Below are positions 17,365 to 64,000 of a DNA stretch of 64,000 nucleotides, piece by piece. Position 1 is the first letter of the stretch; the number at the start of each line of letters is the position of its first letter. The notes beneath the pieces are model-generated. The model was not told where the DNA came from. It did not search any database and saw only the letters and a list, made by a program, of their open reading frames with translations. The translations under genes and the position numbers were made by a program. The DNA is from an uncultured Mollicutes bacterium (GTDB lineage: Bacteria > Bacillota_I > Bacilli_A > Acholeplasmatales > Anaeroplasmataceae), in NCBI GenBank assembly GCA_945923475.1, contig CAMELE010000001.1, positions 35,875 to 99,874 on the forward strand, in the 5' to 3' direction.

Positions 17365-18420
17365 ATGATAAAACTTGATTATTCTTTACAAACTCCAGAA
17401 GAAAGAAATCAATTAGTCGAACAAATTTTGGCTGATAATCCAGATCCGCCTGAAAAATATTTAGAAATTTTAGCAGACTATTTGGTTCTTTGTATGGAGA
17501 AACAAGAAAAAAAGGAGAAAAAATTATTAACTGATAATCGTATGGCTACAGTTAATAAGCGTGAGACTTCTTTTGAAGGTCTTGTTTCCCAACTCGAAAA
17601 TGGCGAAGATGGAATTTATAATTTAATTACAGATAATAGAAATACAATATTTCAACCACATATTACAATTACAAAAAAAGATTTAGAAGAGATACCGAGT
17701 TTAAATTAGTTAAGAGAAGCCATTAATGTTTGGGAGGCTAAATTAAAAGTAGCAGAAGGCAAAGATGCTTTTGTTATTAAAAAGGCTCTTATTGAAATGC
17801 GTAAAGATTAGTATGTTATGAAAAATGCTTATCGTCGTCCAATAGTGCCTACAAAATTAACCAGATCAAAGTCTTATATTCCATTAGATGATAAAACATT
17901 TATTTTTGATGATGATGGTTTTCCCATTCCTGATGGAATTAGTTTATTAAAACCTGAGATATGTTCTGCGATTTTATGTAATTATTCCCGATTAAAGCAA
18001 GATAGTTGGGGCGAATATGATAAAGATTTATGGTATTTAATGGAGGATTTTGATAAGCTTTGCGATAAAGCCTTAGCTAATTATCCTCTTTATGACAGAA
18101 TCGTTGAATATAAAATTGATGGTTTACAAAATATTGACATTCAAGAGAAAATACAAATGGAATTTGGTATTAAGCATAGTCTTGAATATATTTCAAGTTT
18201 ATGGCGTAATAAAATTCCAAAATTAATTGCTTCGACTGCGGAAGATGAATACTTAGATAATTATTATTTAAATGTTGAAAAAGGTAAATATAAAAAATGT
18301 AGTCGTTGTGGCAAAATAAAATTAGCTCACAATAAATATTTTAGTAAAAATAAAACAAGTAAAGATGGCTTTTATAGTATTTGTAAAAGTTGTCGAAATT
18401 CTAAGGCCAAAAAATCTTAA
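17365..18420 (+). CDS. packaging-region zinc-finger protein (TAG = Gln)
   Basis: 351 aa when TAG (for example at 17707 and 17809) is read as Gln; stop TAA. ATG at 17365 after ACTGGAGG. A helical N-terminal half (LDYSLQTPEERNQLVEQIL), a helix-turn-helix-like stretch at about 245-290 (RIVEYKIDGLQNIDIQEKIQMEF) and a C-terminal treble-clef or zinc-ribbon unit (CSRCGK at about 312, CKSC at about 339). Proteins like this sit directly before terminase in Firmicutes phages; a small-terminase or packaging-site binding role is an inference. Confidence 0.65.
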
Positions 18421-18469
18421 TATTGTCCTTTTGTTTATAATAAATAGTTGAAAGGAGAATATCTTATTT

Positions 18470-19657
18470 ATGGCTGAAACATATTATTGCGAAAAATGTA
18501 ATCGCACAATGAATGGCACGGAATTTTATTCATCTAATAATTTAGAAAAATATCCTAATGATGGTAAATTCCCTGTGTGCAAAAAATGTATGACAATGCA
18601 CGTCGATAATTGGAATCCAGATACTTATTTATGGATTTTACAAGAAGCGGATGTTCCTTATGTTCCAGACGAATGGAATAAATTAATGGAAAAATATGGG
18701 CGCGATCCGCAGTCTATGACCGGTATGACGATTCTTGGACGCTATTTGTCAAAAATGAAACTCAAATAGTTTAAAGATTATCGTTGGAAAGATACAGAAT
18801 TTTTACAGTAGATGGCAAATAATAAATTAGAGCAAACTATGAAACGTCAAGGATATGACGCTCAATAGATTGCAACTGCTATTGAAAAAAGTTCTATTGC
18901 TATTCCAGAAGGAGAATTAAAAGAGCCGGTTTATGCTCCACCACCTAATGCCCCTACGGAAGACTATTTCGCACAATAGAGTGGTGAAGTGGAACAAGAA
19001 TTAGATTTAACTGATGAAGACCGCACTTATTTAAGACTTAAATGGGGCAAAACTTATAAGCCTGAAGAATGGGTTAAACTTGAATAGTTGTATGAAGAAA
19101 TGATGGCTTCTTATGATATTCAAGGCGCCGGACATAAAGACACGCTAAAATTAATATGTAAGACATCTTTAAAGGCAAATCAATTGATCGATATTGGTGA
19201 TATTGAAGGTTTCCAAAAGATGAGCAAAGTATACGATAGCTTAATGAAGTCTGGTAAATTTACCGCTGCTCAGAACAAAGCAGAATCAGGTGAATTTGTT
19301 GATTCAATTGGCGAATTAATTGAATTATGTGAAAAAGAAGGATATATTGAAAGATATTATGTTGAATAGCCACATGACAAAGTGGATTTAACTATTCAAG
19401 ATATGCAACGTTATACTCGCACTCTTATTGAAGATGAAACTAATATTAGCACAATGGTAGAAAAGGCTTTGCGCGAAAATGCTAAAGAAGATGAAGAGAA
19501 AGCAAAGAACGTGGAAAGTGATATCGTTGATGATGCTGATTTAAGTATTGAAGAACTTGAAAAAACTATTAAAGATAGTGATTACGCGGACTTTGAGGAA
19601 TTTAAAGAATAGGAGACTGCGCAAGATAATGAGTTCTTATAGGGTTTGAATAAATAA
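18470..19657 (+). CDS. probable terminase small-subunit-like protein (TAG = Gln)
   Basis: 395 aa through in-frame TAGs; ATG at 18470 after AAAGGAG. N-terminal zinc ribbon (CEKCN at about 7-11, CKKC at about 37-40), a helical core and an acidic coiled C-terminal part (ENAKEDEEKAKNVESDIVDDA). The TAA overlaps the TerL ATG (TAATG), so translation is coupled. Position next to TerL supports a packaging role; there is no strong domain match. Confidence 0.65.
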
Positions 19658-21396
19658 TGGCATTACAAGATTTACTGTAGTTAAGTGATAGCCGTAGAAA
19701 AATAGGCTTATCACCGGAGCGAGTAGAAGCGGTAATGCCCATCATCCGAAAATACGTTGCCTTTTGGAGAGAATATCCTGATTTATTTGTAGATTTTATG
19801 GTGCGAGGAAGACGCACTGAAATAAAAGATGGAGAATTTAATTTTTATTTTTATTAGAGAGTATTTCTCCGTTCTGTTATGCGTTATTAGTATGTTTACG
19901 CGGTTTTTCCTCGTGCTTATTCTAAATCATTTTTGTCTGTTATGGCATTAATGATTAGATGTATTTTGTATCCTGGTGCGCATTTGTTCGTTACTTCTGG
20001 AGGTAAAGAACAAGGTGCTAGTATTCTTCATGATAAAGTTCAAGAAATATGTGAACTTATTCCAAGTTTTAATCGAGAAATTGATTGGAGCCGAGGAAAA
20101 ACTCTTGAAGGAAAAGATAAAGTTAGATATGTATTTAAAAATGGTTCAGTTTTGGATAACCTCGCAGCTCGTGAAAGCACTCGTGGTCAGCGTCGTCATG
20201 GTGGACTAATGGAAGAATGTGTTGGTATTGATGATGCCATCCTTCGTGAAGTTATTATTCCTGTTATGGCAATTTCTCGTAGAGCTAAAGATGGCACTAC
20301 CAATGAACAAGAGCCATTAAATAAATCACAAATCTATATTACTACTGCTGGTTATAAGGGCACGTTTCCTTATGATAGACTTATTGGTTTCTTAGTTCGT
20401 ATGGTGACTTAGCCCGATCGTTGTATGGTATTAGGCGGAACATGGCGAACTCCTGTTGCGGTAGGATTACAAAGTAAGACATTTATTACTGACCAAAAGA
20501 ATGAAGGAACTTATAACGAGGCCTCATTTGAACGTGAATATGAATCTAAGTGGTCAGGAACTGTTGAAGATGCTTTCTTTAATGGAGAACATTTTGATAG
20601 AAATAGAAAATTATTATAGCCTGAGTATGAAGCTTCTGGACGTGCGGGCGCGCAAGCTTATTATGTGCTTTCTGTAGATGTAGGCCGTAAGGGATGCGAT
20701 ACAGTAGTTTGTGTATTTAAAGTAACACCACAAGCTCAAGGTCCAGCTATTAAATCATTAGTAAATATGTATACTATGTCAGATGATCATTTTGAAGATT
20801 AGGCTATTAAATTAAAGAAATTATTTTATAAATATAAAGCTAAAACTTTAGTTATAGACGGTAATGGTTTAGGTATTGGACTTTTAGATTATATGGTAAA
20901 ATCTCAAAATGATGAAGATGGTGAATTTTTACCTGATTTTGGTGTTGAGAATGATGATGATGGATATTATAAAAAATATCGCACACCAAATACTCAATTT
21001 GATGCTATGTATGTTATTAAAGCAAATGCTCCAATAAATACTGAATGTCATGCTAATGCTCAGACTCAATTACAAGCGGGTAAGGTAAAATTCTTAATAG
21101 ATGAGAGAACGGCTAAAGAAAAATTATTAGCTACTCAAAAAGGTTCAAAAATGACTCCTGAACAAAGGGCAGATTATTTAAAACCATTTACTTTAACCTC
21201 CATATTAAAAGAAGAAATGATGAATTTACGCGAAGAAAATGAAGGTATTAATATTATTCTAAAACAGGCAAATCGCGGAATTCGTAAAGATAAATTTTCG
21301 GCTTTTGAATATGGATTATATTATTTAAAACTTGAAGAAGATAAAAAGAAAAAACGTAAAAAGTTTAATGCGGCTGATTGGTGCTTTTTAAATTAA
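19657..21396 (+). CDS. terL: terminase large subunit (TAG = Gln)
   Basis: 579 aa across six in-frame TAGs; stop TAA. The ATPase domain has a variant Walker A (PRAYSKS, about 87-93) and a Walker B with catalytic Glu (GLMEE, about 183-187). The RNase H-like nuclease has acidic positions in SVDVGRKG (about 338) and LVIDGNGLG (about 398), and a late Asp (AADW) near the C terminus. It cuts and pumps the genome into the prohead. The best landmark for family placement of this phage. Confidence 0.9.
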
Positions 21397-21408
21397 GGAG
21401 GATGGAAA

Positions 21409-21765
21409 ATGCGTGCTTCAAGAGGAGAAATTAAAATTGAAGAAATCTTAGAAGAAGCAGGACTACCTTTTAAAATGGAATATATCTTTCCAGATTTAAA
21501 AAGTCCCAGCGGGCGTCCGCTTCGTTTTGATTTTGTTATATTTGATGATGATGGAAAAATTGATTTCATTATTGAGTATTAGGGAAAATAGCATTATGAA
21601 GCCAGTTCTAAATTTGGCGGAAAGCGCGGTTTATACCAGTAGCAATATAATGATAATCAAAAGAGACGTTTTTGCGCTTTACATGATTTTAGATTAATAG
21701 AGATTCCATATACCGACGAAAACCTTATTTCTTATGATTATATAATGAAATTAGCAGGTTATTAA
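21409..21765 (+). CDS. PD-(D/E)XK endonuclease-like protein (TAG = Gln)
   Basis: 118 aa, ATG after AAGGAGGATGG, stop TAA. Motif order fits the Vsr/homing-type family: Glu of helix 1, RFDFVI, IIEYQGKQHY, GG, then QYNDNQKRRFC and LIEIPY. In this family the residue before HY is usually Gln, and that codon here is TAG, which supports TAG = Gln. Either a homing-type nuclease lodged between TerL and portal or a packaging nuclease. Confidence 0.8.
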
Positions 21766-21778
21766 AGGAGGTGGAACT

Positions 21779-23428
21779 TTGGATACGCAAGATCGTAATG
21801 GTTAGATTCATGCTAAAGGTTTTGATATTTATAATGGTCGTTATGAATATAATTATAATGACACTACGGATTATGCCAATAGAAAAATAAAAGTTGGCAC
21901 AAAAACTTTAGATGATGCTATTTTAAAACTTGGTGATTATAGTAAGATTAGATACCCAGGTCAAAATCGTATTATTACGAAACCTGATGTGCTTCGTGCA
22001 CTCGCAGAAAAAGATTTAGATACTTTGCGATACATTTCTAATTTTTATTATGATATAAGTGGTGTATATCAACGAGTTTGTAATTATGTTGCTTTTTTAT
22101 ACCGCTATGATTGGTATATTGCAGCCGAAACTTATGATGATAATGTAAAAGAAGAAAAAGTTTTAAAAGATTTTTATAGAATGTTGAATTATTTTGATAA
22201 TAGTTATATTAAAAAGATTTGTGGAGATATTGCTTTACAAGTTGTTAAAAATGGATGCTATTATGGATATATAGTTCCTTCAGAGAAAAATCTAATTTTA
22301 CAAGAATTGCCAGTTAGATATTGTAGAACACGTTATAGTGTAAATAATACCCCAGTTGTCGAATTTGATATGCGATTTTTTGATACTTTTAGAGATATGA
22401 ATTACCGCTTAAAAGTATTAAAATTATTCCCAGAAGAATTTGCTAAAGGTTATGTTTTATATAAGCAAGGAAAACTTGCTTTAGAAGATGCGGTTGGATG
22501 CTAGCATACTGGTAGTTGGTATGTTCTTGAGTCAGAAAATTGTGTTAAATTTAATATTAATAATAGTGATGTTCCTATTTTTGTAAATTCTATTCCTACT
22601 ATTATGGATTTAGATGCAGCACAAGATCTTGATCGCAAGAAACAAATGTAGAAGTTGCTTAAAATTTTAGTCCAAAAGCTCCCAATGGATAAAAATGGTG
22701 ATTTGATATTTGATGTTGATGAAGCCAGAGATATCCATAATAATGCCGTTTAGATGTTATAGAGGGCTATTGGAGTAGATGTTTTAACTACATTTACTGA
22801 TGTAGATTCTATTGATATGTCTGATAAAAATACTACTACAACGACAGATGATTTAGCTAAAGTTGAACGTAGTGTTTATAATTCATTAGGTATTTCATAG
22901 AATTTGTTTAATACTGATGGCAATATGGCTTTAGAAAAATCAGTATTAAATGATGAATCTACAATAAGAAGTTTAATTTTATAGTTTAATATATTCTTTA
23001 ATAGAATTATTGAAAAAAAGAGTAGTAATAAGAAATATAATTTTAGATTTTATTTATTAGAAACTACTCAGAATAATTATCAAACACTTTCTAAAATGTA
23101 TAAAGAACAAGCGCAAATGGGACAATCAAAACTATTGTCTTAGATTGCTCTTGGACATTCATAGAGTTTTATTCTTAATGCAGCTCATTTTGAAAATGAG
23201 ATTTTACATTTAAGTGAAATTATGATTCCTCCTCTTATGAGTTCTACTATGGGTAGTGAAGATATTTTGGGTTTAAAAGGTTCATCATCTAATAATAAAA
23301 CTCAAAATAATTCAGGAAGCTCAGGTTCTGGAACTGTTAAAGCTTCTAATGGCGAAGCAGGACGTCCGGAAAAACCTGATGATTAGAAAAGTGAAAAAAC
23401 TATTCAAAATAAAGAAGCAATGAAATAA
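21779..23428 (+). CDS. portal protein (TAG = Gln)
   Basis: 549 aa, TTG start at 21779 with AAAGGAGGTGG; stop TAA. Position after TerL, size, and a long helical body with KPDVLRALAEKDLDTLRYISNFYYDISGVYQR, a YYGYIVPSEKNLILQELPVRYCR beta region, and a disordered Ser/Gly/Asn-rich C terminus fit a Firmicutes-phage portal. It would form the dodecameric ring at the capsid vertex. Many in-frame TAGs. Confidence 0.8.
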
Positions 23429-23437
23429 GGAGGATTT

Positions 23438-25024
23438 ATGAAACATACAAGTATTAAATTAAATACACCTTGTGAGTTTATAAATATAACTCCTGTAAAT
23501 CCTTTAATTTCTAAATGCCAAATTAAAGTTTGTTATGTAGATGATAAGCCTAATCGTAATAAAAGCGTAATTACTAAAGATGTAGCGACTGAGATGGCTA
23601 ATAGTCTTCCAGGCAGTCCTATTGTTGGCTTTTTTAATGAAAATACCGAAGATTTTGAAGAACATAATAGGATAATTGAATTATCTAATGGCGAATTTAG
23701 AATGAGAGATAATACTCGCCCTTATGGTTTTGTTGATCTTGGAGCTAAAGTTTGGTTTTAGAAATTTTTGGATGATGGTGTTGTCGAACGTGAATATTTA
23801 ATGACTGAAGGCTATCTGTGGACTGGTTAGTATCCTGAATGTAAACGTGTAGTCGATAAAGGGAATAATCATTCTATGGAGCTTGATGAAAAAACATTAA
23901 ATGCTACGTGGGCAAAAGATAGCAATGGAAACCCTTAGTTTTTTATTATAAATAAGGCAATTATTTCTAAACTTTGTATTTTGGGAGAAGAAAATGAACC
24001 TTGTTTTGAAGGCTCCCAAATCAATGTGAATTTTTCATTCGATGATGGTTTTAAGAACACTTTGTTCTCCATGATGAATGAACTTAAAGAATTTATGAAA
24101 GAAGGAGGAGCCAAAGTGTTTACACAATATGCTATTGAAATTGGCGATGGTTTGTGGAATTCTCTCTGGTCTTATATTGAGACTAAGTATCCTGGTGAAC
24201 CTAATAGTTATTGTTCTGTTTATCGTATTGAGGGCGTTTATGAAGATGCCGGACAAAAGTTCGCTATTCTTCAAAGTAGACAGGACCAAAAGTATTATCG
24301 CATGGACTTTTCTCTTACCGATGTAGAAGGCTTTGTTCCTTCCGAGACTTTAATTGAAGTAACTAAGTCTTATACTCCAGCGGCGGAGCCTCAGTTTGCT
24401 CTTGCTGATGTTGAAGCTTTTGAGACTGACTATGCTTCAAAGAAAAAAGCTGAGGAAGAGGACAAAAATAATAAATCTAATAGTCAAAATCCTGATAATA
24501 ATTCAGAGGGTGATGGTAATAAAGAAGATCCTGATAAGGGAGAACCCTCTAATAAGTCTGATAAAAACGACAATGGTGAGAATGATGATGATAAGAAGAA
24601 AAAGAAAAATTATTCTCTTGAAGATGTTGTTGAATATACTGAACTTAAAGCTCAGTATGATGAATTACAGACCAAATTTGCAGCTCTTGAAACTGAAAAT
24701 AATAGCTTGAAAGAGCAAATTGCTCCACTTGCTGAATTTAAAAATGCTGCTGAGAAGAAAGATAAAGAAGATATGATTGCTAAATTCTATATGCTTTCTG
24801 ATGAAGATAAGGCTGATGTTGTTAAAAATATTGATAAATATTCTCTTGATGATATTGAAGCTAAATTATCTGTTATTTGTGTTCGCAACAAGGTGAGTTT
24901 CGACCTTGACGAAAATAATAAGCCCAATGGTGCTACTACTTTTAATTTGAACAATAATGGTTCAGAAGATGATGATATGCCCGCTTGGGTGAAGGCGGCT
25001 TTTGCTACCGCCAACAAAAATTAA
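23438..25024 (+). CDS. prohead protease/scaffold fusion (TAG = Gln)
   Basis: 528 aa, ATG after TAAGGAGG, stop TAA. The N-terminal third (NITPVNPLISKCQIKVCYVDD..VITKDVATEMANSLPGSPIVGFFNENTEDFEEHN) is typical of prohead proteases in Firmicutes phages. Residues about 340-395 are a low-complexity acidic linker (DKNNKSNSQNPDNN) and about 395-440 a coiled coil, as in scaffolds. The second part has few or no TAGs. It would shape the capsid and then digest itself. Confidence 0.75.
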
Positions 25025-25041: not shown

Positions 25042-25959
25042 ATGTTTAAAGACTTTTTGAATAAGAATCTTCCTATTAAGTCTCAGGCAAAGTATGTTGA
25101 GTTTGGTTACGGTCAGGTCGAGCCTAATCACCTTTCCGCACAAAGAAATGCTCAAATCTATGCTCAACTTCCCGCCAATAAAGACATTGAGATTCTTGAA
25201 AACGGTCAGTTTGTAAAGTATGACTATGCTGCTAATGGTAATGGTATCGGCGAAGTCAACTTCACTGGCGAAGGTGAATGGATGCTCGTTTATAACGAGA
25301 TTAAGCTTTATCGTGATCATTCTGATGGCAGTAAGCAGTGGGATTGCGAATTTGCTATGATTAAAGATGACTATCAGGCTCGTGTTTATAGCCCTTATGA
25401 TTGGGAGCATACCGAGGTTGAATATGGTGGTCGTTTCTGGAACGGCGTTGATGATAAGGGTAAAACTTATAAATTGATCAATCAGACCGTTTCCGCTGAT
25501 CAGGGTTTAAAGACTGTTACTATCGCTGGCCGTGTTTATGATGTTGATGAAACTGGCAAGTTTACTTATGATGGTAATGAATATACTCTTGATAGTAATC
25601 ATCAGGTTGCTAATGTTCCTGTAAAGTATTACTATGATAAACTTCTTACTGATGTTCCTGATATATATGAAGCGAATTGGACTAATGATCCATATCATAA
25701 GTTAGGTATCTATCATGAGAAGTTCATGGAATCTGGCACTTCTATGGTTCCTCGTGTACTTAAGACCATGATTGGTGATCTTTATACTACTAATATGATT
25801 AATGAAGAGACTCTTGCTGTTGGAGATAAACTTTCTCCTTCTGCTGCTACAAAGGGTATTCTTAGCAAAACTGGTGACGATTCAATGATCTGGCAGGTTG
25901 TTAAAGTTTATACTATGCCTGATGGTCAAAAGGGCGTCAAAGTAATGCGTATTAAGTAA
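25042..25959 (+). CDS. abundant structural protein next to the capsid gene
   Basis: 305 aa, ATG after TAAGGAGG, stop TAA, no in-frame TAG. Beta-rich (FVKYDYAANGNGIGEVNFTGEGEWMLVYNEIKLYR). Location between scaffold and major capsid protein suggests a capsid decoration or head protein. The use of CAG/CAA only and GC-richer codons matches high expression. Confidence 0.7.
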   Translation: MFKDFLNKNLPIKSQAKYVEFGYGQVEPNHLSAQRNAQIYAQLPANKDIEILENGQFVKYDYAANGNGIGEVNFTGEGEWMLVYNEIKLYRDHSDGSKQWDCEFAMIKDDYQARVYSPYDWEHTEVEYGGRFWNGVDDKGKTYKLINQTVSADQGLKTVTIAGRVYDVDETGKFTYDGNEYTLDSNHQVANVPVKYYYDKLLTDVPDIYEANWTNDPYHKLGIYHEKFMESGTSMVPRVLKTMIGDLYTTNMINEETLAVGDKLSPSAATKGILSKTGDDSMIWQVVKVYTMPDGQKGVKVMRIK

Positions 25960-25976: not shown

Positions 25977-27083
25977 ATGTTAGATAAAAATAATTTAGTT
26001 GCTCTTATGAAGCAAGTTGCTAAGGCTGATCCTTCTGCTCCTGTTGCTTATAGTTATGAGGGAAAAAATCTTAGTTATGAAGCCTTAAATGAAACTCTTC
26101 GTAATGAAATGAATGAGTTGGCTGGTACTTACGCTCTTTATCGTGAAAATAAGAATCTTATTTTCTCTATGATTGAGGAGACTCTTGATGAGGTTCTTCC
26201 TAAGAAAGTTATTCAGCAATATGATCAGTTTGCTGAGGTTAAGACTTTCGCTCAGGGTGATAAGCCTGTCTTCCGTCGTCCTCTTAATAATCGTGCTCGT
26301 GCTAAGCAGTTTGTAACTCGCGTTGGTCTTGCTGGTATTTATGAAGTCTTCAAGCTCGGACCTAAAGAGAATGAAGCCTTCGAGGTACGTACTAGCGCTA
26401 TCGGCGGAGCTGCTTAGATTGGCTTCGAAGAGTTCCTTGATGGTCGTGTTGATTTTGGTGAAGTAACCAAGATCATCATGGATGGTATGGATGAACTTAT
26501 TTATAAAGAAGTTGCTGCTGCTCTTAGATCTTCTATCAATCAGCTTCCTCCTGCTAACCGCGTTGCGGCTGCCGGATTTGATGAAGCTGCTATGGATCGT
26601 TTGATTACTATTGCTTCTGCTTATGGTACTCCTACTATTTATTGCACTTATGAGTTCGCTGTTAAGATGATTCCTCATGAGGCTTGGAGATATACTGAAG
26701 CTATGAAGAACGAGCTTTGGAATAATGGTCGTCTTGCTACTTACAAGGGTACTAAGGTTATTATTCTTGAGCAGGGCTTTGAAGATGAAACCAATACTCG
26801 TAAGGTTATTGATCCTGGTTATGCTTGGATTATTCCTACGGGCGCTGATGGTAAGCCTGTAAAGATTGCTTTCGAAGGCGGCACTATTGTTGATGAGTTT
26901 AACAATTATGATCGTTCTCGTGAGATTCAGGTTTACAAGAAGGTTGGCGTAGTTTGTATGCTTGCTAATAACATCTGTGCCTATGTTGATACTTCACTTC
27001 TCGGTCAGATGTATACTTGGAATTATGATGGAGTCACCGGTAAGGTTGTCACTTATGATGGCCGTCTTGATGGCAATGTCTAA
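25977..27083 (+). CDS. major capsid protein (TAG = Gln)
   Basis: 368 aa with one in-frame TAG at 26415-26417 (AAQIGFEEFLDG); stop TAA. An HK97-like capsid is supported by the long N-terminal helix followed by a P-loop/E-loop pattern, ELWNNGRLATYKGTKVIILEQGF, and the position after protease/scaffold. Codon use is the most optimised of the late genes. That even this gene contains a TAG shows that TAG must be read efficiently late. Confidence 0.85.
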
Positions 27084-27169: not shown

Positions 27170-27763
27170 ATGATTAATAATGAAGATATTTATAATGTAA
27201 AAAATAGAAGCACTAGCGTAGTTGTTTATACTATTCCTGATACTAATTTGCGTCGTGAATTTGCGCCTGGTGAAACTAAACGTATTCCATTTGGTGAGTT
27301 AGAGAAGTTAACTTATCAGGCAGGCGGCCGCGAATTGATTGCTAATTTTTTACAAATTTTAGAGCCAGAAGTAACTCATACTCTTAACGTTCATACTGAA
27401 CCTGAATATAATATGTCAGAGCAACAAGTTGCTGATTTAATTCTTAATGGCTCATTAGATGCTTTCTTAGATGCTCTTGATTTTGCCCCTATTGGAATTA
27501 TTGACTTAATCAAGAATTTATCTGTTAGCCTTCCTATTACTGATATTAATAAGCGTAGAGCTTTGAAGGAAAAAACTGGGTTTGATGTTGATAAAGCTAT
27601 TGCTAATGATATCGCTAGTAAAGAAGAAGATACTATTGTAGAGAAAGAACCCGCAGCTAAGCGCCGTGTAGTAAGAGAAGAACCTACTACTCAAGGTCGT
27701 CGCACAAGCGGTTCTGGATATAAAGTAATTAATAAAACCGAGGAAACTTCCTCCAAGAAATAA
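27170..27763 (+). CDS. head-associated protein
   Basis: 197 aa, ATG after AAAGGAG, stop TAA. N-terminal beta domain (STSVVVYTIPDTNLRREFAPGETKRIPFGELEKL), a helical middle and a basic disordered tail. The gene follows the capsid gene and its terminator, the usual place for a decoration or head-completion protein. No in-frame TAG. Confidence 0.65.
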   Translation: MINNEDIYNVKNRSTSVVVYTIPDTNLRREFAPGETKRIPFGELEKLTYQAGGRELIANFLQILEPEVTHTLNVHTEPEYNMSEQQVADLILNGSLDAFLDALDFAPIGIIDLIKNLSVSLPITDINKRRALKEKTGFDVDKAIANDIASKEEDTIVEKEPAAKRRVVREEPTTQGRRTSGSGYKVINKTEETSSKK

Positions 27764-27782: not shown

Positions 27783-28355
27783 GTGGGAACATTATTCTCA
27801 GCTATTTATAATCGCTTTCTAAACAAGGTTACTGATGACATGTATTTGGAGTTGACTCCTGCAGATACTCTAAAAGATTTATAGAATCTTATAATAGATG
27901 CTATTCCTGGATTTGAATTTCCGCGAAAAAATCTTTTAGATTATAATTTAGATGTTGCTATTATTAATGAATCTGATGCTATGCCGGATGATTTTATTGT
28001 AGGAACGGTATGGGGAGAACTTCCAGAGCCGGGTGAAGAACCTCAAGTTTTAGTTGATAGATCCAGTTTTAATTGTGATCTAACTGAAGAGGAAATTAAT
28101 ATTTTAGCTATTTTAATGATGTGCGGTTGGACGCAAAGACAAGTCACTTCAATTGAGAATACTCGAATGAAATATAGTGGCTCTGATTTTAAATTTACTT
28201 CTTAGGCAAATCATCTATCAAAGCTATTAAGTTTGTTGAGTGAATGCCAAAGACAATCTCATCATATGTAGCGTTTATATAAACGTAGACGTTTAAATAA
28301 TAAAGGTGAGTATGAATCTAATTGGGATGTATTTAAAAGTCGATATGATTACTAA
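27783..28355 (+). CDS. head-tail connector protein (TAG = Gln)
   Basis: 190 aa, GTG start after ATAGGAGGG, several TAGs, stop TAA. Mostly helical with ADTLKDLQNLIIDAIPGFEFPRKN and a C-terminal basic helix region. Position and size fit the helical adaptor (gp6/gp15-like) that binds the portal ring. Confidence 0.6.
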
Positions 28356-32221: not shown

Positions 32222-32262
32222 AATGGGAGAGAATAAAAATATTCTCTCCCATTTTTTTTGTT
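32222..32262 (+). terminator. intrinsic terminator
   Basis: AATGGGAGAGAATA / TATTCTCTCCCATT stem followed by T8. Confidence 0.95.
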
Positions 32263-32281
32263 ATGCGGAAAAGGAGAAAAT

Positions 32282-34027: not shown

Positions 34028-34063
34028 ATATAAAGATAAAACTTGGAGAGAAAGGAGATTTCT

Positions 34064-51574: not shown

Positions 51575-51576
51575 TA

Positions 51577-53850
51577 ATGGGTTTTTATGGTAATATAAGT
51601 AATACTTCAAAAACGACCTTCACTTTTGATAGAATTTATAATAATAGACTTCAAATGGATAACAATTGCGCGAGCGATGGAGTATTTTTAGGTCGCTATG
51701 TTTTAGTTGAGTATGGCCTTCCGGCTTCTTAGTATATAATAGGCTACCTTGACAATAATGAGAATATGTATGATGATCCTGTTGATAGAAGTGATTCTCA
51801 CATTATTTTATGTGAAAAAGGTAAAATGGTAAAGGTTAATAGAAATAGATATTGGTATTTATATACCGGAGATACCAAATCTGATGGGTCTCCATATTGG
51901 AGATATCTTACTAGAATCACTAATGACAGAGTTGATGATGAATAGTATAATAAAAATTATCAAATAGATTATCCAGTTTATGGACGAGGATATGATTCTA
52001 CAGTTTGGATAAAACAATATGTTAATAACCAAGAAACTTATATTTAGATTGCTGAATTAAATACTGTTGTTCCGAATTTTTCAATTTATCCATTGCTTCC
52101 TCAAGATCCATATGTTGCGGTTGATAGTACTAATATTGTATATCAACCAGGTAGGTATTATTATTACGATGAAGCTGACAGTCATTATAAATTAGATAAT
52201 AATGATACTAAAACTGAAGGGCGCGTTTATTATTTAGAAAGCGAACTTGGACCAGCAATAACTGCTGATCAAAGTAGTACAAATTTACTTTATAAATTAA
52301 GAGTTCCTACTAATTTCCAACTTGATTTAGATAATAATAATATCTATTATAATAAAGAAGGATTTAATAAGATAAAACATTCTTATGATGATACTACAGA
52401 AAATAGTATTAATTATAAATTAAGTTAGTCAGGATATAAATTTTATTATAATGTAGAATAGGATAATGTTGTTGGTGAACCGATTGAAGATGGCTATGAT
52501 CGTAAATCACTTGTAGTAAAACTTCCTGCTCTTGGTAATGCGGTATGTGAAACTTATGATTTACTTTATGGTCAAAATCGTAATGATTCTGTCACTAATT
52601 TTGATAAAACTAATGTTAAGGGAGCTTTAAATACTCTTAATAAAAAAATGAATTTAGAAAAATTAGAGACTAATAAACTTATTTACTTTTCTACTGAAAC
52701 TGACAATGATATTAATGATAATTATATGAAATCTGCAACTATTTAGGGAGATAATCTAATTTCAGTAGATGCAGGTATTGAAAAAAATGATGGAGCTATT
52801 ATAATTACCCATAATAATTTAGATGTAAATAAAGCATCAAAAAGTTATGGTAAAGATGTTGATTTTAATACTTTTGGTTCTTCCATTACTTTACCTAAAT
52901 TATTTACTGATAGAGCTGGGCATGTTGTAAAAGAAGAAACATTCTCAATTAGTATCCCAAAAGGCTCTTATGAAAATACTAAAGAAGGTAATGTTCTTAC
53001 TTCTTTAAGTTTTATTGATACTACTGGAGCTTTGAGTAGTGAAAAATCTTATTTAGGTACTTTAACATTAGGAACTGGATATATCACTAACGATAAATTA
53101 AATACTATCACCAAAGATACAACTATTAATGATAGTATTACTAAATTGATTGATAATAGCGATAGTAAATATAATACTTTATTAGGTCAAACTAATAATA
53201 GTTTTGGTAAAGATACTGTTCCAACTCTTTATGGTTTAAGACAAGGAATTAATAGTGATAGAACTAGTATTAGTAATTTAAGTAGTAAAATTGATATTTT
53301 AAATGGAGATGTATCTACTACTAATTCTGTTGCTTATAGTATTAAATAGGCTATTGATAAATTAGATAAAGCTGATAACAAGGTAGATAAACAATTTGTT
53401 ACGGCGGTAGAAGAAAAAGATGGTTTAATAACTGTTTCAAGAAGTGCTTTACAAGAAAGTGATTTGCCTATTACTTTTGATGGAACTTATAGTAATAGTA
53501 ATAAAGTTGCTACTATGAGTAGTTTAAATACTTTAAAAGCAAATCTTTTAGGCGGTTATACTGGCACATTAGCTGATGTAAATACTTTAGCAAATAGTAA
53601 ATTAAATGAAAGCGCAGTGCGCAGTCTTACATATAATGCGACTTCTGGAAATAATGGAGCTAAAACAATAGCAGAAATGTTTGATTTAATTGTAGAATTA
53701 TAGAATAAAAATACGTAGTTAAATACAACCATCAAAGCATTATAGGATAAAGACATTGAATTAAATAATTTAATTGTTGGATTAAGAACTGATGTTGATG
53801 CTTTAAAAAATAGCTCAAATAATACTGATACTCCATCTGAGACAACTTAA
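51577..53850 (+). CDS. tail fibre protein (TAG = Gln)
   Basis: 757 aa, ATG after GAGGAGGG, many TAGs, stop TAA. The N-terminal domain (MGFYGNISNTSKTTFTFDRIYNNRLQMD) is a common start of Clostridia-phage fibres. Beta-rich middle with a repeated VYYLE/RYYYYDE theme, and a helical coiled end (LNTTIKALQDKDIELNNLIVGLRTDVDALKN). Confidence 0.7.
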
Positions 53851-53938: not shown

Positions 53939-54520
53939 TTGCCTAATACATTAAATAAATATGTAAAATTTGTCAGAGGTTCTAAAACTGCTTTTGAAAA
54001 TTTAGGAACAAGAAAAGACAATGATACTTTATATTTTATTTATGGGGAAAATGATTCTTCTGGAGAACTTTATTTAGGTAGTCGTCTAATTCGTGGTGGA
54101 ATTAGTTCCGCAGGTAAGTTAAGCGATTTAAGCGATATTGTCCTCAATGAAGTTAAGACAAATCAAGTTTTAACTTATAATGAAGAACAAAAAAAATGGG
54201 TTAATTAGAGCTTAGAAAATAATGAAACTTTAATTAATTCTATTGTTGAAAAATTATCTACAGAAGAAAATTTAGCTAAATTAGCTCCTGTTTTTAAGGG
54301 CATAGTTCCAGGCTTAGTTCCAGTTTCTTTGCATGAAACTAAAGGAAAACATATTCTCACTGATGCTGGTACATGGATTGATATGCCAGTAGGAACATTA
54401 ACTTAGGGAGATATTGAAACAATTAATATGGCTAATAAATATTTAGTAGATAAGGGTCCTGATAATTTGGTAACTCGTGTTGAAGCGGTTGAACAAACTG
54501 TTTCTTGGGCTGATATTTAA
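53939..54520 (+). CDS. fibre-family protein (TAG = Gln)
   Basis: 193 aa, TTG start after GGAAGGAG, two TAGs, stop TAA. Its start (KYVKFVRGSKTAFENLGTRKDNDTLYFIYG) aligns with the start of the next gene (NVKFLKGSQAEFERVAGRYKPGAFYLVIN), so the two share an N-terminal attachment module. C-terminal helical part ends WADI. Confidence 0.65.
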
Positions 54521-54534: not shown

Positions 54535-56199
54535 TTGAACGTTAAGTTTTTAAAAGGCTCTCAAGCCGAATTTGAAAGGGTGGCAGGTAGATATAAACCT
54601 GGTGCGTTTTATTTAGTAATTAATGATAATAAGTCCGCCGAAGACTATAAAAAACCAAGTCGTCTTTATTATGGTGTAGATGAAAATAATTGTGTTCCTG
54701 TAAATCAAGGTATTAATGTAGTTAATACTACCGCAGATTTACCTCAACAAAGCTTTAACCAAAATACTGCTGGCGAATTTTATTATGTAAAAGATAAAAA
54801 TATTTTATGTATTAATAATGGTAAAGGTTGGGTTCAAACTAATACTGATACTGTTTTAGATACTAGTAAAGAAAATAGCAATGTATCAGTAAATGGTAAT
54901 CCTGAAAAACCTAATGGAGTTTCTATAACTAATACTATTGCTGATAGTAGTGGTAATATTATTACTGAGACTTATGATATTATGGGTAGCGATTATATCC
55001 AAATTGAAGCAGTTCCTGCTATTGGTGATAAAGGTGTAGACACTGTTAAACTGAGTTTAAAAGGAATTAATTATCAATTAAATTCTTCTTTAAACAAAAA
55101 AACTTTAAATGTTAATTTAAATAATGGTGATACTGGTGCAGGTAATTTTAATATTACCGCAGGTAGTAATGTTAATATTGCTGAAACTTCTACGGGAAAT
55201 TATACTTTAAGTGTAAACAAAGCTGTTGATGGTATTGATATAGTTAATCGTGTTGGTGGCACTGGTTTTACTGCTTCTATTAGTGGTCCTGGTGTTGAAG
55301 GAGCTAGTAATGGTACAACCTTATCTGCTGATATCGATCCAGAAGTTGCTTTAGAAGGTAAGGCTGGTAGCTACAAATTTAAAAATGGTGTTTTAACTCT
55401 TCCTGTTTATAGCAAGCAAGATATTGATAATTAGCTTAGAACTATTAATGCTATGGTATTCCGTGGTGGATTCCACGTTAGAGATGGAGCTATTATCTAT
55501 GATAATTCTGATATTGCTGAAATTACTGAAGGTAATACCTTTATTTATACTGGAGCTGAAGATACTCTTTGGAATGGTCATTATTTACGTCCAGGTGATT
55601 TAATTATTGCTTCTGGGGAAGAGGTTAATGGAGTTATTACTGGTACTATTAATTGGACTTATGTCCCTTCTGCTAATGATCCTGTTACTGAAATTGAAGG
55701 AGCTAAGGATAATAGTACTACTGGTTTTATTATTAAACTTGGGCCTACTAAAGAACTTTTAGATTATGCTCTTAAGGGTGAAAGTGGTATTCTTTTAGAA
55801 ACAGAAGTTTTAACAGACTCAAAAGGTCAACCTACTAATTCTAAAGTCGTTACTATTAAACATAGTAATACTTTAACTGTAGATGCTCCAGTTTCTCAAG
55901 ATTATGCTGACGAACAAACTATTACTATTAATGAGCCAACTGAAATTGATGCTCAAGGACATGTAGTAAGATCTACTCAGAAGACTTTTACAGTAAAAAA
56001 TACTCATCAAAAGATTGCTAATGCAGATTATACAGTAAATGGTACTGATACTTTAATTCCTAATCTTAAAGTTGCCGGTGCTGTTCTTGAAGGTAAACCG
56101 CTTGTTTTCGCCAGTAATAGCTTAAAGGTTAATGTTTCCGCGGCGACTAAAACTGATGATGCTAAAGTTAATTTTGAGTTAGAGTGGGGAACATTCTAA
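54535..56199 (+). CDS. tail fibre-like protein (TAG = Gln)
   Basis: 554 aa, TTG start after AAGGAG, one TAG at about 55432, stop TAA. N-terminal module shared with the preceding gene, then beta-rich repeats (TLNVNLNNGDTGAGNFNITAGSNVNIAETSTGNYTLSVN). Few TAGs and moderately optimised codons suggest higher expression than the neighbouring fibre genes. Confidence 0.7.
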
Positions 56200-56317: not shown

Positions 56318-59300
56318 ATGTCTAAGATACGTTTTCGTCCTGTTTAGGGCCCCGAAGAAAAAATAAAGGCATATCCTCAAACTGATGGATATTTTTATGT
56401 GGCAACAGACACAGGACGAGTTTATTTAGATACAGCGACTGAAAATAAAATACCAATAGGTTCAAGTGGAGTTTAGGTAATTTACGGAACTGAAAAAGAA
56501 GTCGAAATTGAGTATGATGCAGATGAAAATCCAATTGGATATTCAATTCATTTATCTAATTTATCAAGTTCTAATCCTCATATAAATGATTTAATTTTAA
56601 ATAGTGATGGAGCATTTTATCGTATTAAAAAATTTAAATTAAATGATGATAAAGAAAAAGTTGCAAGTTGTGAAAAATTATTGGCAGGCGGTGGAAGTCA
56701 AGACCAAGAAGTCAAAGTAAACGGTACTGTTTCTTTAACTTTGAATGGACCTACTGATGTGCTTAATGGTGAATCAGTAAGTGTAACCGCACTTGTGAAA
56801 TGTAGGACAATAAATGGAGACCCAGTTCTTGATTCTGTTGAAGGCACTTTAACTATTAGATAGAAAAAAAGTGATGGTTCTTGGGAAGATATTTATAGTG
56901 AAGCAAAAACTTATCAACATAATAAACCAATTACTATTGATATTTCGGCTCATTTAAGAAAATCTTCCACACATGAAATTGAGTTTATTGTTAGTAAAAA
57001 TAGTGATCCTACTAACAATCATTTTTCTACGATTAAGAAAACTCAATTTATAACTACTCATGAATTAACTCTTTAGTGGTAGGAAAGTAAATTTAATAAT
57101 AATTTACCTTTTGATAATGGTTAGATTAATGTTACTTGGTTAATGTCCAATAAAGTAAATAGTGCTATTGAAGTTTATTTTGATAATTATTTAGTTTTAG
57201 ATAAAGAATATGATAATACTAATACTAGAAATGAAGATAGTATTACTATAACAAAGAATACAATTATTTTAAATAATAATAATGATTCTACAATAACTTT
57301 AGCAAATTATTTTCTTCATGGAGAACATACCATTAAAGCTAAACTTTATTTAGTTAACAATGGTGAAAAAGGAAATGGTACTGATTTTATTGAGAAAGAA
57401 ATTGTTATTTTAGATAGAAGTAGTAAAACTCCTTTAATTTGGACTGGTGATTTTAAAACTGAATATTACACTTATGAAACTATTAGAATTCCTTTTAGAG
57501 TATATGACCCCAATGTAATAATTGCGAAAGTTAGTTTGTATAAAAATGGTGTCTTATTAAGTACTCGTGAAATTGCTGATTAGACTATATGGCAATATTG
57601 GGAAATTACTAATCTTTCTGTTAATGATAGTTCTTATTATACAATTAAGGTAGGAACTGAACCGTATGATTATTCTCGTAATTTTACTTTTACAATTAAA
57701 ATAGATCCATTGAGAAATATGGAGTTAGCTAGAGCCAATGACTTAAAAGTTAATTTTGTTGCTACTGGACGTTCTAATTCTGAGAGCAAATTAAGCCGTG
57801 AAACATTAAAGATTAACGGTAAATACGTGGAATTTAAAAATTTTAATTGGTATAATAATGGTTGGGTTCTTGATGATAATAATACTACTTGTTTAAGAGT
57901 CAGCAATGGAGCTGAAGTCTCTATTCCTATTGGATCATTATCTTTTGATAATAGTTCTTCTACTCCTACTCATAGTATTGAGATTCAATTTAAAATTAGA
58001 AATCCACAAAATTATTCTAAAGTAATTACAAAGTATACTCGTTATAAAGCAAGTGATGATTCTGGGAAATCTTGGACTGATAAAGACGCCTGGAATGCAT
58101 TTAAAGATTAGTCTACTTATGTTAATTATGATGAATTCTTAACAAAAAAATATTTACCAGAACATCCAGAGGCACCAAGTTATGATGAATTAACTTATAA
58201 TGGATTAGATCAAGATTTTAATTTAAATAATCTTGTTTGTGCTTACGGTTCTTTAAAAAATCCTTTAGGTATTTATTTTAGCCCTCAAGATGCTGTATTT
58301 ACAGCTAATGGTGATGAAGAGACTGTTTCAGTTGATTTTGTAGAAGATGAAATGTTATATTTAACATTTGTTTATACAAGTTCTAAGCCTGGTCATACTG
58401 GTGGAGATTCTAAATTATTAGAAATTTTCTTAAATGGTGTATTAACTAGCGTCGCTCGTCGTTCTGGTAATACCGCTTGGACTATTGATTCTGATGTAAT
58501 TAAATTTATGTCTAATACTTGTGATATTGATATTTATAGTATTAGAGTTTATGATGCTAGCTTAACTATTCCTGATGTGGTTTAGAATTACGCTTTTGAT
58601 AAAAAAGATATTAATCAATGGGATTAGAAAGATTTATATGATTATAACACTATTTTAAACGATTATGTATTTTCTTATCGTAAAATGCTTGATTACAATA
58701 CTAACCATAGTGATAAACCATTAATGCCATATATTATTTTAAAAACTACTAAAAATAATAGTGAAAGCACTGATAATAGACTTCCATACTCTAAGGAGAA
58801 TGGCGCTCAAAAAGGAACTATGGAATTCGTAAATGTCCCATTAGATATTGCTTATGCTAAGGGCGAACTTGATAAAATAGTTGAAAAAGAAGGTTGGGAA
58901 CCAGTAATAGATGAAGAAACCAAAGAAATAAAATATACTGCGGTATAGAATTATTATTTACATCATTGCCCCAGCTTTATAACTCTTTTTGATAAAGCAA
59001 CATTTTAGGTTTAGGGAACTTCTTCTCGTAATTATCCAAGACGTAATTATAAGGCTAAATGTAAAAAAGCTATGTTTATGAATAGAGGACCTTTTGAATC
59101 TATTTATAAAGAAGAAGAAGCAAATAATAATTTAAATACAAAAAGTAAAAGTTATCTTGAATTTTTCTATATGGATAATAATACTGTTGGTACTACTAAG
59201 TTTACTCTAAAAATTGATTTTATGGAATCTTCTGGAGATTATAATAGAGGATTTGCTAATTTAGTTAATGAAACTTATTCTAAGCACCCAATAGAAGATT

Positions 59301-62300
59301 ATCAAGAGTCTTTTGATAGATATGATTTATATGGAAATGCTGATGATTATAGAACTTCTATTAAAGGGTATCCTGTTTTAGCATTTCATTGGCCTTCAAC
59401 TAATGACAATGAATATAATGAAAACGATATTATTTATATTGGAAAATATAATATGTTATTAGATAAGGGATCTGACGAATGTTTTGGATTTAAACCTGAT
59501 AAAAAGGTTTTATAGAATCAAATTAATGGAACTCCAAAAGTAAGAGATATTGCTGAATGTTGGGAATTTTAGAATAATTCAAGAACATATTGTTCTTTCC
59601 GCGATCCTTGGAATAGATATAAATTATCTTTTAGACCTCCATTAATGGATGATGAAAATTCATCTGGTTATTTAACTTCTGGCGGAGCGCCAATAGTTGC
59701 TGATTCTTTCGAAGTTAGATATAACTCTAATGATGATTTAATTACAGATAAATTATTTAAGTGTGTTTCCGCGGAAGCTACTGATGCAGACAAAATAATT
59801 GAATTTACTGATGCAATAAATAATACGGTTCCCGATAGATTAAAATCAGAAACCATTACTGATAGTTCTACTGGTATTAAGCATAAACAATGGACTATTA
59901 CTAATCCAGGACAAAATTCTATCGTCTTTGACATGAAAAATAGGAATACTTCTCGTGAATTATTACTAGCATTAATGTCTAACTGGGAGGATGCTGTTAG
60001 TTGGGTTTGGAGTACTTGCTTAGATTGTAGTATTGATTTTGGTGGAACTTTGTATGAAATTCCTTCTATTGGTCAATATAATTTAGTAGATGGATTAGCA
60101 GAAGCTTTATACGAAAAAGGAAAATATTATGTAGTTACCGGAACTAATGATGCGGGTAATGATATATATGGAATTTCTAATGATGAATTTAATTCTGAAA
60201 TAAAGTATTATAAATTAAATGGAATAGATTATAATTTAATTACTTTAACTAATAATGAAAATAAAGTTTATAAGACTGGTATATACTATATTTTACAAGA
60301 TGAAAAAAATAATATTTATACTATTAGTAATGATAGATTTAATCCCAATGAATCTTATTATTAGTTAATTCAGAATGAAGCTAATATTGATGATAGATGG
60401 TTATTACCGGCTCCTGTTACTTATGGTGGAGTAACATATACCAAAGATTGTAAAGAATATCGTCAAGCAAAATTTAAGAATGAGTTAAGTAATTATTTTA
60501 ATATTGAATATTTAGCAACTTATTTCTTAATGACTGAAATTTTTGAATGTTATGACTCTCGTGGTAAAAATGCGATGTTTGCTTCGTGGGGTCCACAAAA
60601 GAATAATATCGAAAAAGCGACTGGAATTCAACATTATATTTGGTATCCAATTTTCTATGATATTGATACTCAATTAGGTATTAATAATACTGGTATTCCA
60701 TCATTTGAATATTATGTTGATGCTACTGAAGATGGTAGTTATTCTACTAATGATAGTGTATTATGGAATAATTTCTATACTTTCTTTAAGAGCAAAATTG
60801 TTGATAAATACAAGCAATTAATGGGTAAGCCAAATGGATCTTATGATTAGACCCAAGTAAAACAAATTTTTAAGAAAGAGTCTGGAACTTCTTCTAAAAA
60901 GAGTGATGTTGTTGATAAATGGTATAAAACAGATCCTTCTTTATTCCCAGGTAGTTATGCTGTATAGGGAGAGCGTCCTATTATTGCTTTAAATTTAGAT
61001 GAAGAATATAAATATATTATTCCAACTAATTCAGCAGCAAAGGATACTATTTTTGGTCGTATTACTAATAGTGGTTAGTATGAAGTAGAAACTGATTAGT
61101 ATTTTTATGCTTTATAGGGCGACCGCAATCTTTATCGTTCTCAATTTTTAACTAATCGTCTTAATTATATTGACTCTTGGTTAACAGTAGATGAATATTC
61201 TGGAGATAGCGGTAGTAATAATATTATAAGTCGTATTTCTGCTAACAATCCAAATACTACATCTGATGAATGGATTGAAGGAACTAATAATTAGGGATTA
61301 ACTAATTTAATACCAAATTCTCCTTACTGGAAAGATGGGGTTGAATTTGGCACTAAAAATCATATGTTTGATGGTGAATATTGGATTGAGATGGAACCAG
61401 CACGTCGTTCTTATGTTACTGTTGGAACAGACGGAGCAAATTTCCCATCTTAGAAATATGATGGTTTAACTCCGGTTAGATTTACTGCCCCAGACTTAAA
61501 AAAGGGTATTATGTCAAGTGGTAATTATCGCGAACAATTGTATTATATTTACGGACTAGAACAAATGAAATCTCTTGGAGATTTAAGTAAATTATATTTC
61601 CAAGAATTGTTCATTAGAGGTAAAGCTAATAAATTAGTAGATTTATTATTAGGATATGATGGCCTTTCTGAGGAAGGAAAAGAATATAAAAATAATGATG
61701 TAAATAATTGGAGTTATCCTAGTGAAGGTATGCCTCTATTAAAAGAAATGAATCTTTGTAATATTAAATTTTTAAATCCAGTAGCTTTAGATTTAACTAA
61801 AAGTGAAAAATTAGAAAACTTTAGAAATACCGGGTCTAATGTTGCTAAAGTTTAGTTTGCTGAAGGTGTTGCTTTAAATACTTTATATTTAACTGATTAT
61901 ACAAATTACTTAAGTTTAATAGAAGCAAATCTTTTAACTAAATTAGTTACTAAATATGTATATCCTACAGTTAATCCTATTACTAAGCGACTTGAAGTTG
62001 CGGAAGAAAATAAGGGGTTATACATTAAAAATCTAACGGATGTCGAAGATAGTGCAATTACAACAAGTATAAAAACTTTTGATATTCGTGGTGGTAATTT
62101 AGATTATTATTCTTATGAGTTATTAAGACGTTATTATCTTGGATGTGAAAAGAGTAATTTAACGGGATGCGAAATCAATTTAACTAATGTTCAATGGAGT
62201 CCTTATAGACTGTTAAATGACGATAAAACAGAATTAAATAGCAATGTTGAGTATTATAAAGATAATGGACACTTCCAATTAGAAAAAATTGATATAGAAG

Positions 62301-64000
62301 ATATAAGTAAAATTACTCCAAGTGAAATAAAGAATAATTTAATTTATTACTATGATAATAATATAAATGGATATAATGATATTCATAATAAAATTACTGA
62401 TTATACTTTATTGCGTAATTTATATAATAAAGGTCCTGTTTATTTCAAAGGTATTAACTAGGATCATCCTAATATAACTGGTGTTATTTATATTGAGAAT
62501 ACTCAAGAAATAGAAGAACATGTGATTCAAGAAGAACTGCAAAGTATTTATCCTAATTTAACTATTTTTGTAAAAAATGTTAAAAAAGAATATTCTGCTA
62601 AGTTTGTTCTTGAACAGGAAAACGCGGACGGAGTACTAACTCAAGAAATTTTAAAAACTTAGAAATTACCTTTATCAAGCACTAAGTTTTTTGATAATCC
62701 TACAAATTCTTTAAATGAGACTTATATTTCTTTTGGTAGCTTACAAGAAAAAATGCCTACTTATGATTTTAAAGGTTGGGAAGATGAAACTGGTGAATTA
62801 ATAATTACGGTTGGAAAAGATGTAAATGAAAAAGATACTGTTTTAAAAGATAATTGGGATTCTTTATCTTTACAATCCGATAAAATAGATTATATTTTTA
62901 AAGCGAGATTTGAGCGTAAATCTTATACGATTACTTTCGTTAATGGCGACCGCATTATTAATGATTCAACTGTAAAGAAAGTATTTAATTATGGTGAAAA
63001 AATTACTGTTCCAGAAGAATTCTATTATTTTAATAATACAGAAGTATCTGATTTACCAGAAGGCGAAGATCCATTAGAGTGGACTTGGAGATAGACGGGA
63101 TGGGCGGATAAGGATGGAGTTAAAATTGATTTAACTAAACAACTAGCCTATGCTGACCGCGAATTCTATGCTGTTGGAGAGCCGATTAGTGTTTATGATA
63201 ATATTTTAACTAATGATTCTACTCATAAATATTATGATATTATAAACTCTGATGGAGAGTTATCATTTGTAATGACTGACTTAGCTAAGAATTTAAAAGG
63301 CAAAGTTACTTTACCTACAACTTATAATGGTTAGCCAATTACAAGAATTAAATATAGCCAAGTTAACCCATCAGCAGCAGTTGGTATTCAAGTAAATCCT
63401 AATATTACTGCGATATTTTTTGCTCCAAAAGATAGCAATAAAATTTCTGTAATAGATGATTATGCTTTTATTTTAGATAGTGGGTTAGAATATTTCCAAT
63501 TTAGTGATTGTTTAAAGAAAATTGGTACTAAAGCATTTTATCAGTGTCCTTTAAGCCGTAATAACATAATTCCTTATTCTTCTTCCACTGAAGGTTTGAC
63601 TTTTGGAGCTCAAGCATTTTATCAAAGTAAGATGGGTTCTTATTCTCCTTATAATTTAATTATAGAGGGATGCAAAGACGGTATTCTTAATTTTGATATA
63701 AATGCATTTTCTGGCCAGACAATTTTAAACATGTCTGGTAATTAGTTTAAAGGTTATACTGGTGCTATCCAAGTATAGATTGGTACTAATAAACACCCAA
63801 TTAAACAAATTACAGCAGATAGTTCTGGTAATATTTTTACTCCTCGTCAAACTGGTATGCCTACTGTTGCTAATGGATACACAGGCCGTTTTAGATATTA
63901 TTATGTGGCTAGCTATGGTGAAAGCGTTAAAAATACTTTACATAATATTTATGAAGCAATGATATCCAATAGAGCGAATTTTGAAGAAGAGCCTATTGTA
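56318..64000 (+). CDS. giant multidomain adhesin/receptor-binding protein (partial; TAG = Gln)
   Basis: More than 2561 aa, open to the window end, ATG after AAAGGAG, many TAGs throughout. Regions by rough residue: 1-120 fibre-type head (RFRPVQGPEEKIKAYPQTDGYFYVATDTGRVYLD); 130-420 Ig-like beta repeats; about 480-770 LamG-like lectin (LYLTFVYTSS..LLEIFLNGVLTSVARRS..IYSIRVYDASLT); about 915-1510 with CotH-like features (MTEIFECYDSRGKNAM, WYPIFYDIDTQLGINNTG); about 2145-2290 InlB B-repeat-like (YDFKGWEDETGE; SYTITFVNGDRIIND); about 2340-2480 BspA-like leucine-rich pieces (LKKIGTKAFYQCPL). Probably binds the host surface. CotH kinase identity is tentative. Confidence 0.75.

Follow-up and report, generated by a model that had tools for sequence, protein, structure and literature searches.

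How can a tailed bacteriophage make its virion when the genes for that virion are crowded with the stop codon TAG, and why are a few of those genes almost free of it? These questions are raised by a stretch of 64,000 nucleotides (the window), which comprises bases 35,875-99,874 of contig CAMELE010000001.1 (C1, 163,874 bp, in a 2.45-Mb bin). Judged by its genes, the window covers most of the late half of a tailed phage of 164 kb, which has siphovirus-type tail genes and genetic code 15. We examined the whole of C1, beyond the window, and our analysis of the sequence argues strongly for recoding by a suppressor tRNA, in which TAG would be read as glutamine (Gln) at a residual cost per codon that shapes where TAG is found.

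When TAG is read as sense, the plus strand of window positions 17365-64000 holds 26 open reading frames (ORFs) of at least 100 amino acids, amounting to 15,157 codons. These contain 219 in-frame TAG codons, spread over 22 of the 26 ORFs, no internal TAA or TGA, and a TAA or TGA at the end of every one; a random-stop model at this base composition expects about 23% TAG and gives a probability of about 10^-138 that all 219 should be TAG. Across the whole of C1, the share covered by ORFs of at least 100 amino acids rises from 52% to 81% once TAG is sense, while reading TGA as sense did not give a comparable gain in the window and in-frame TGA is not used in the closest relatives of C1. The joined proteins are single products that match expected phage families, among them sigma factor, terminase, portal, virion and tape-measure proteins. 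The preliminary description of this DNA had proposed exactly such a reading under translation table 15, and to this extent it is borne out. Its wording, that TAG is sense throughout the late region and interrupts each of the genes it named, stands in outline only. Terminase, portal, tape measure and fibre ORFs are indeed interrupted, but the capsid gene holds a single TAG and four ORFs hold none (25042-25959, 27170-27763, 29717-30298 and 31048-32031), so that 'every gene' would overstate the case. Nor is the recoding exclusive to the late region, as it extends past the window and into genes on the other strand, and TAG occurs outside the late genes in RecJ, the endolysin and homing endonucleases.

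Were these TAG codons true stops, homologues would be expected to end at them. In comparison with standard-code relatives, 229 of 300 TAG codons are placed well within homologous alignments, and 6 are close to the homologue's end. The open segments of C1 that end at TAG were also compared with a collinear standard-code sister, G007, in which 76 homologues continue and three stop; of these three, one is an antisense shadow and two fall within about 7 codons of TAA or TGA. A systematic search of C1 for a true TAG stop, early genes included, returned no convincing case, the candidates again being antisense shadows or lying a few codons from TAA or TGA. Of 66 aligned gene ends, 55 are TAA and 11 are TGA in C1, and the sister has a TAG stop at only two; the loss of TAG as a stop was therefore cheap.

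The meaning of TAG was read from the late genes of 76 viral loci that have a related portal; these genes were aligned with TAG masked, and the residues at TAG columns were scored. Summed across 50 TAG columns in window genes, the log-likelihood is +84.5 for Gln and -7.7 for the next residue, Glu, leaving Gln as the sole well-supported residue. Individual columns are as clear: among relatives without TAG at the position, terminase residue 67 is Gln in 21 of 21, portal residue 462 is Gln in 47 of 47, and all three TAG columns of ORF 21409..21765 are Gln in every one. In the closest relative, the 95%-identical phage G001, the codons opposite TAG of C1 are 102 TAG, 20 CAA, 10 CAG and 14 others. 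On the evidence of these alignments, TAG encodes Gln in C1.

The likely decoder, a suppressor tRNA with an adjacent ribozyme, is located outside the window. ARAGORN finds one tRNA with a CUA anticodon in C1 (C1:1206-1295, minus strand), and its ends carry U1, an unpaired 1-72 and G73, which are features of tRNA-Gln, together with a variable region of 21 nucleotides. It has no encoded CCA, although 16 of the 21 tRNAs of C1, which lie at 0.8-13 kb, do encode one. Directly 3' of this tRNA, on the same strand, is a motif like the hepatitis delta virus (HDV) ribozyme, of the theta kind: the tRNA ends at base 1206 and the motif starts at 1205, with P1, P2 and P3 in a nested pseudoknot and the catalytic C ahead of the 3' strand of P2. 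The Rfam model of the F. prausnitzii HDV ribozyme, RF02682, scores it at 26.1 bits (E 0.017) and thus below the gathering score of 44 bits, the model having been built on a larger, P4-bearing ribozyme. Our own descriptor places the motif exactly at base 1205 and has a single further hit in C1; the motif search finds no other tRNA-adjacent ribozyme in the contig. A relaxed descriptor, requiring no GG after P1, finds a ribozyme likewise placed after the CCA-less CUA tRNA of G002, in which 16 of 16 pairs are kept with six double compensatory changes relative to C1. By its sequence the motif belongs to the tRNA-associated theta ribozymes described by Kienbeck et al. (PMC10879173), and self-cleavage is predicted. 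The ribozymes of that report share with the C1 motif the HDV-like P1/P2/P3 pseudoknot, the 'CTAA' junction and a cleavage site, predicted in C1, right at the 3' terminus of an amber suppressor tRNA that lacks CCA, in a code-15 phage.

The relatives carry matching tRNAs. CUA tRNAs are found in the TAG phages G002, G005, G006 and G016, and UCA tRNAs with tRNA-Trp-like ends in the TGA phages G009 and G010, and neither kind is among the 37 tRNAs of the standard-code G007; a CUA call by ARAGORN in G010 appears to be a misread tRNA-Arg. Long variable regions, unlike those of ordinary tRNA-Gln, are seen in some Gln-type CUA tRNAs of the clade, that of C1 (21 nucleotides) among them, and G005 has a CUA tRNA of 97 nucleotides (L099:2265-2361). 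The G005 record (L099 and L100; IMG/VR, 402 kb) holds 82 tRNAs, four of them CUA suppressors, in two clusters about 200 kb apart, and is possibly two genomes joined in assembly. In the bin, whose organism is not necessarily the host of the phage, release factor 1 (RF1), release factor 2 and glutaminyl-tRNA synthetase are present. GatB was not found there, which leaves the Gln-tRNA amidotransferase route without support, and the class-I release-factor family matches just two bacterial genes of the bin, neither of them in C1.

The code, the tRNA, the ribozyme motif and the placing of TAG are thus read from the sequence, and between them we propose the following steps. The ribozyme would free the 3' end of the tRNA, which the CCA-adding enzyme of the host would finish and its glutaminyl-tRNA synthetase would charge with Gln. 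As the suppressor tRNA accumulated it would outcompete host RF1, allowing the TAG-rich late proteins to be completed, and the TAG-bearing sigma-like gene may form a second gate by making late transcription dependent on the suppressor. If RF1 were incompletely silenced, each TAG would be a small loss, so that TAG would be lost by selection from genes whose expression precedes the build-up of the tRNA (DNA polymerase and most early genes) and from the virion proteins of highest copy number (capsid and tail tube), while low-copy proteins could carry it freely. Stated more widely, a reassigned stop, be it TAG to Gln or TGA to Trp, would be purged by selection both from virion genes of highest copy number and from genes needed ahead of the suppressor, a rule of dosage and timing towards which we lean.

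The capsid gene, its two neighbours and the tail tube gene are nearly free of TAG: in TAG-recoded relatives the TAG share is 1% for the 25042 gene, 1.8% for 25977, 5.7% for 27170 and 2.8% for 31048, compared with about 30% for other genes. Together these four have 21 TAG to 885 CAA/CAG, against 1193 to 2722 elsewhere, and all 36 TAG loci for which the data suffice show a lower share in the four. In TGA phages the same genes have 2 TGA to 70 TGG, against 186 to 241 elsewhere (P 1.5e-13, although Fisher P values overstate independence because the sequences are related). In unrelated code-15 crAss-like phages, the capsid protein gp32 and the auxiliary capsid protein gp36 have 28 TAG to 287, and the other genes 275 to 648; each of the two proteins is present in nine copies per asymmetric unit (PMC10172136). 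The predicted structure of the 25977 product matches HK97-fold capsids (mean pLDDT 69) and that of 31048 matches siphophage tail tubes (mean pLDDT 64), both with moderate confidence. The four genes favour CAG in TAG-recoded and standard relatives alike (62-64% against 19-26%), which we read as a sign of high expression. ORF 29717..30298 is of another kind, since it has no TAG in C1 but a 40% TAG share in relatives, and its lack of TAG is probably chance. The literature searched, outside which the key prior survey of Borges et al. 2022 falls, yielded no account of such a depletion.

At the other extreme stands the tape measure gene with 70 TAG codons, for which simple arithmetic puts the readthrough per codon at 0.968 or more if 10% of the product is to be full-length, and at 0.990 or more if half is; late decoding must therefore be efficient. 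The depletion in the capsid gene suggests that late decoding is also imperfect, or does not begin early enough.

A second region poor in TAG lies among the early genes. The TAG share is 33% in late genes and 3-9% in early blocks, and TAG accounts for 3 of 55 Gln codons in ORFs on the minus strand between 36 and 53 kb of C1. DNA polymerase has none in 103 Gln codons across three TAG phages, GyrB none in 20, and several genes at 13-41 kb have none either. A quasi-binomial regression over 56 genes gives weight to both: the TAG share is lower where the standard-code sister has a stronger CAG bias (z -5.1) and higher in late genes (z 5.8), so that the pattern cannot be put down to timing or to expression by itself. 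Few genes of the phage are as rich in TAG as its homing-endonuclease-like ORFs, and endonuclease-like ORFs that share a DUF2726-like domain and are rich in TAG lie in the window at 21409-21765, between terminase and portal, and at L010:13391-14119 and L014:3239-3982.

One reading offered for recoded phages is a timing gate, in which TAG is placed only according to when a gene is needed and blocks late proteins until the suppressor tRNA appears. It is a published hypothesis (PMC9523058, PMC10879173), it agrees with the contrast between late genes and early blocks, and in one crAss-like sample the additional proteins of the intracellular fraction lacked recoded peptides (PMC9523058). A gate acting alone is nonetheless unlikely here, given that capsid and tail tube lie within the late cluster and yet are nearly free of TAG in all lineages, and that several TAG-bearing genes belong neither to the virion nor to lysis. 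Somewhat less likely still is that TAG is a neutral third Gln codon, distributed by the age of recoding in each gene and by codon bias, with no gate or cost. A single transition separates TAG from CAG, CAG is scarce where TAG is abundant, and the low-TAG genes are those with high CAG bias in standard-code relatives, all of which speaks for such neutrality. By the same token TAG should be most reachable by mutation in the capsid and tail tube genes, where CAG is common, yet TAG/(TAG+CAG) is 4% in the low genes and 69% elsewhere. These genes moreover avoid the reassigned codon in the TGA phages too, where the choice is between TGG and TGA, and the DNA polymerase of C1 is CAA-rich rather than CAG-biased and still has TAG at none of its 50 Gln codons. 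That TAG stands for another residue, such as pyrrolysine, Tyr or Glu, is very improbable: ARAGORN labels the CUA tRNAs Pyl, because of the anticodon, and the variable region is unlike that of ordinary tRNA-Gln, but Glu scores far below Gln at the aligned columns, and U1 and G73 are found on most CUA tRNAs of the relatives as well. Decayed genes, or programmed truncation with products ending at TAG, are favoured only by TAG being a stop in the standard code and by RF1 in the bin genome, and can be set aside, as the preliminary description had done for decay, since all 219 stops are TAG, homologues run through them and Gln is conserved at their columns.

Several points weigh against suppressor-tRNA recoding at a cost as we have drawn it. 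A readthrough of about 97% per TAG in the tape measure must coexist with a cost that purges TAG from the capsid gene. The recoding is not strictly late, the TAG share being 19% in RecJ, 36% in the endolysin and about 30-70% in the homing endonucleases. The ribozyme stands beside the suppressor tRNA in two lineages only; G003 and G014 have in-frame TAG, yet the parts searched, which are fragments, contain no CUA tRNA; and the enzymes counted in the bin need not be those of the phage host. The low-TAG genes, furthermore, were picked post hoc in the first data set, for which the TGA and crAss sets serve as independent checks.

The clade of C1 uses three codes. Short-distance code switching is reportedly also described by Borges et al. 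in 2022. In a quick tree of 82 rows, which does not distinguish gain from loss, the late genes are TAG-recoded in 46 rows, TGA-recoded in 16, standard in 16 and undecided in 4, and at least 10 changes among the three states are required. TAG and TGA recoding are never combined in one locus beyond a single codon, and at the TGA columns of TGA phages Trp scores +133.7 and the next residue, Tyr, +0.4. Recoding of the sigma-like gene that heads the late cluster is seen in 22 of 23 distinct sequences from TAG phages and in 13 of 14 from TGA phages. Pfam did not confirm the sigma assignment of the 17365..18420 product. TAG, TGA and standard codes likewise alternate over short distances in zeta crAss phages (PMC7886860).

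The clade, in which one homologous late module exists under the TAG, TGA and standard codes and which includes a collinear standard-code sister, is a natural experiment on why phages recode stops, something usually put down to a timing gate or to an effect against the host. Depletion in two recodings, in crAss-like capsid genes and in DNA polymerase suggests a measurable cost per codon, so that any gate would work despite that cost. If the rule of dosage and timing holds, the counts of a reassigned codon per gene would be a readout of residual termination cost, and the 70-TAG tape measure would set a lower bound on late readthrough. Searches for recoding that are limited to capsid genes can miss it.

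In its code C1 is, by these features, a phage of a known kind, near the published phAss-1 group, the 'Caudoviricetes code 15 clade' of Babkin et al. 2023 (PMC10607447). They share related portals (39.8% identity), a siphovirus-type gene set, a long tape measure, TAG as Gln in many genes and CUA suppressor tRNAs, and no dedicated aminoacyl-tRNA synthetase is reported for the group. C1 is distant from phAss-1, whose end branch measures 1.4 changes per column, and sits inside a larger clade of metagenome phages; with 39.8% identity of the portal protein it falls outside the proposed phAss-1 genus, whose members have about 80% or more nucleotide identity. It differs further in having one CUA tRNA, with a theta ribozyme. 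TGA-recoded members and ribozymes are not described in PMC10607447, and no depletion in capsid and tail tube was found in the sections consulted. Code-15 crAss-like and Lak phages (PMC7886860, PMC6784885, PMC9523058) resemble C1 in using TAG as Gln mainly in late and structural genes and in carrying a CUA suppressor tRNA. C1 belongs to another phage group, long-tailed, with a 2747-residue tape measure and a tail tube, both of which the short-tailed virions of Crassvirales lack, and the release factor 2 of Lak phages was not found in C1.

The arrangement of the window is given below.

Features of the window (positions counted from its first base; TAG, number of in-frame TAG codons)
Feature	Position	Strand	TAG	Remark
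Early region of small genes	1..16400	-		many with own sigma70-like promoter and terminator
Sigma-factor-like protein	17365..18420	+	2	head of late cluster; one PHROG annotation
Conserved protein	18470..19657	+	8	phrog_3314
Terminase large subunit	19657..21396	+	6	
Small endonuclease-like ORF	21409..21765	+	3	
Portal protein	21779..23428	+	10	
Head-region protein	23438..25024	+	3	phrog_3313
Protein directly upstream of capsid gene	25042..25959	+	0	phrog_35301; putative scaffold/protease role
Major capsid protein	25977..27083	+	1	HK97 fold by structure comparison
Protein directly downstream of capsid gene	27170..27763	+	0	phrog_30998
Head/neck ORF	27783..28355	+	3	
Head/neck ORF	28637..29701	+	8	
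ORF	29717..30298	+	0	
ORF	30298..31023	+	6	
Tail tube protein	31048..32031	+	0	structure resembles solved siphophage tail tubes
ORF	32258..33355	+	11	
Tape measure protein	34043..42286	+	70	2747 aa
Tail-tip/baseplate ORF	42402..45851	+	22	
Tail ORF	46053..48932	+	9	
Tail ORF	48910..51216	+	8	
Fibre-like ORF	51571..53850	+	10	
Fibre-region ORF	53939..54520	+	2	
Fibre-region ORF	54535..56199	+	1	
Giant fibre-like ORF	56318..64000	+	30	2562 aa; ends at TGA 6 bases beyond window

In C1 as a whole the late cluster occupies 53 to 104 kb of the plus strand, and replication, nucleotide and early genes lie on the minus strand. Gene order relative to the 192-kb G007 suggests that C1 is near complete and circularly permuted, and a GGATCA tandem repeat that opens the contig (L009:1-60) is a probable assembly break point. 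Window positions 1-16400 have a GC content of about 0.43, compared with 0.30, and hold a sigma70-like promoter module (TTGACA...TATAAT, minus strand) in over 15 diverged copies, together with intrinsic terminators; the region looks like an immediate-early region for host takeover.

Three further minus-strand genes of C1 deserve mention. GyrB is apparently split into two ORFs with two GIY-YIG endonuclease ORFs between them (L013:2191-6192), which suggests group I introns; in G007 it is a single ORF. An SPFH/Band 7 protein (L013:10932-12317) uses CAG at 20 of 21 Gln codons, and the extreme bias is seen in two relatives also. A protein of 600 amino acids (L014:8201-10003) has a Major Vault Protein shoulder domain (Pfam E 8e-22), is found at 56% in G007 and is conserved in relatives; a vault-like protein seems unusual in a phage, and its use of CAG at 19 of 20 Gln codons suggests high expression.

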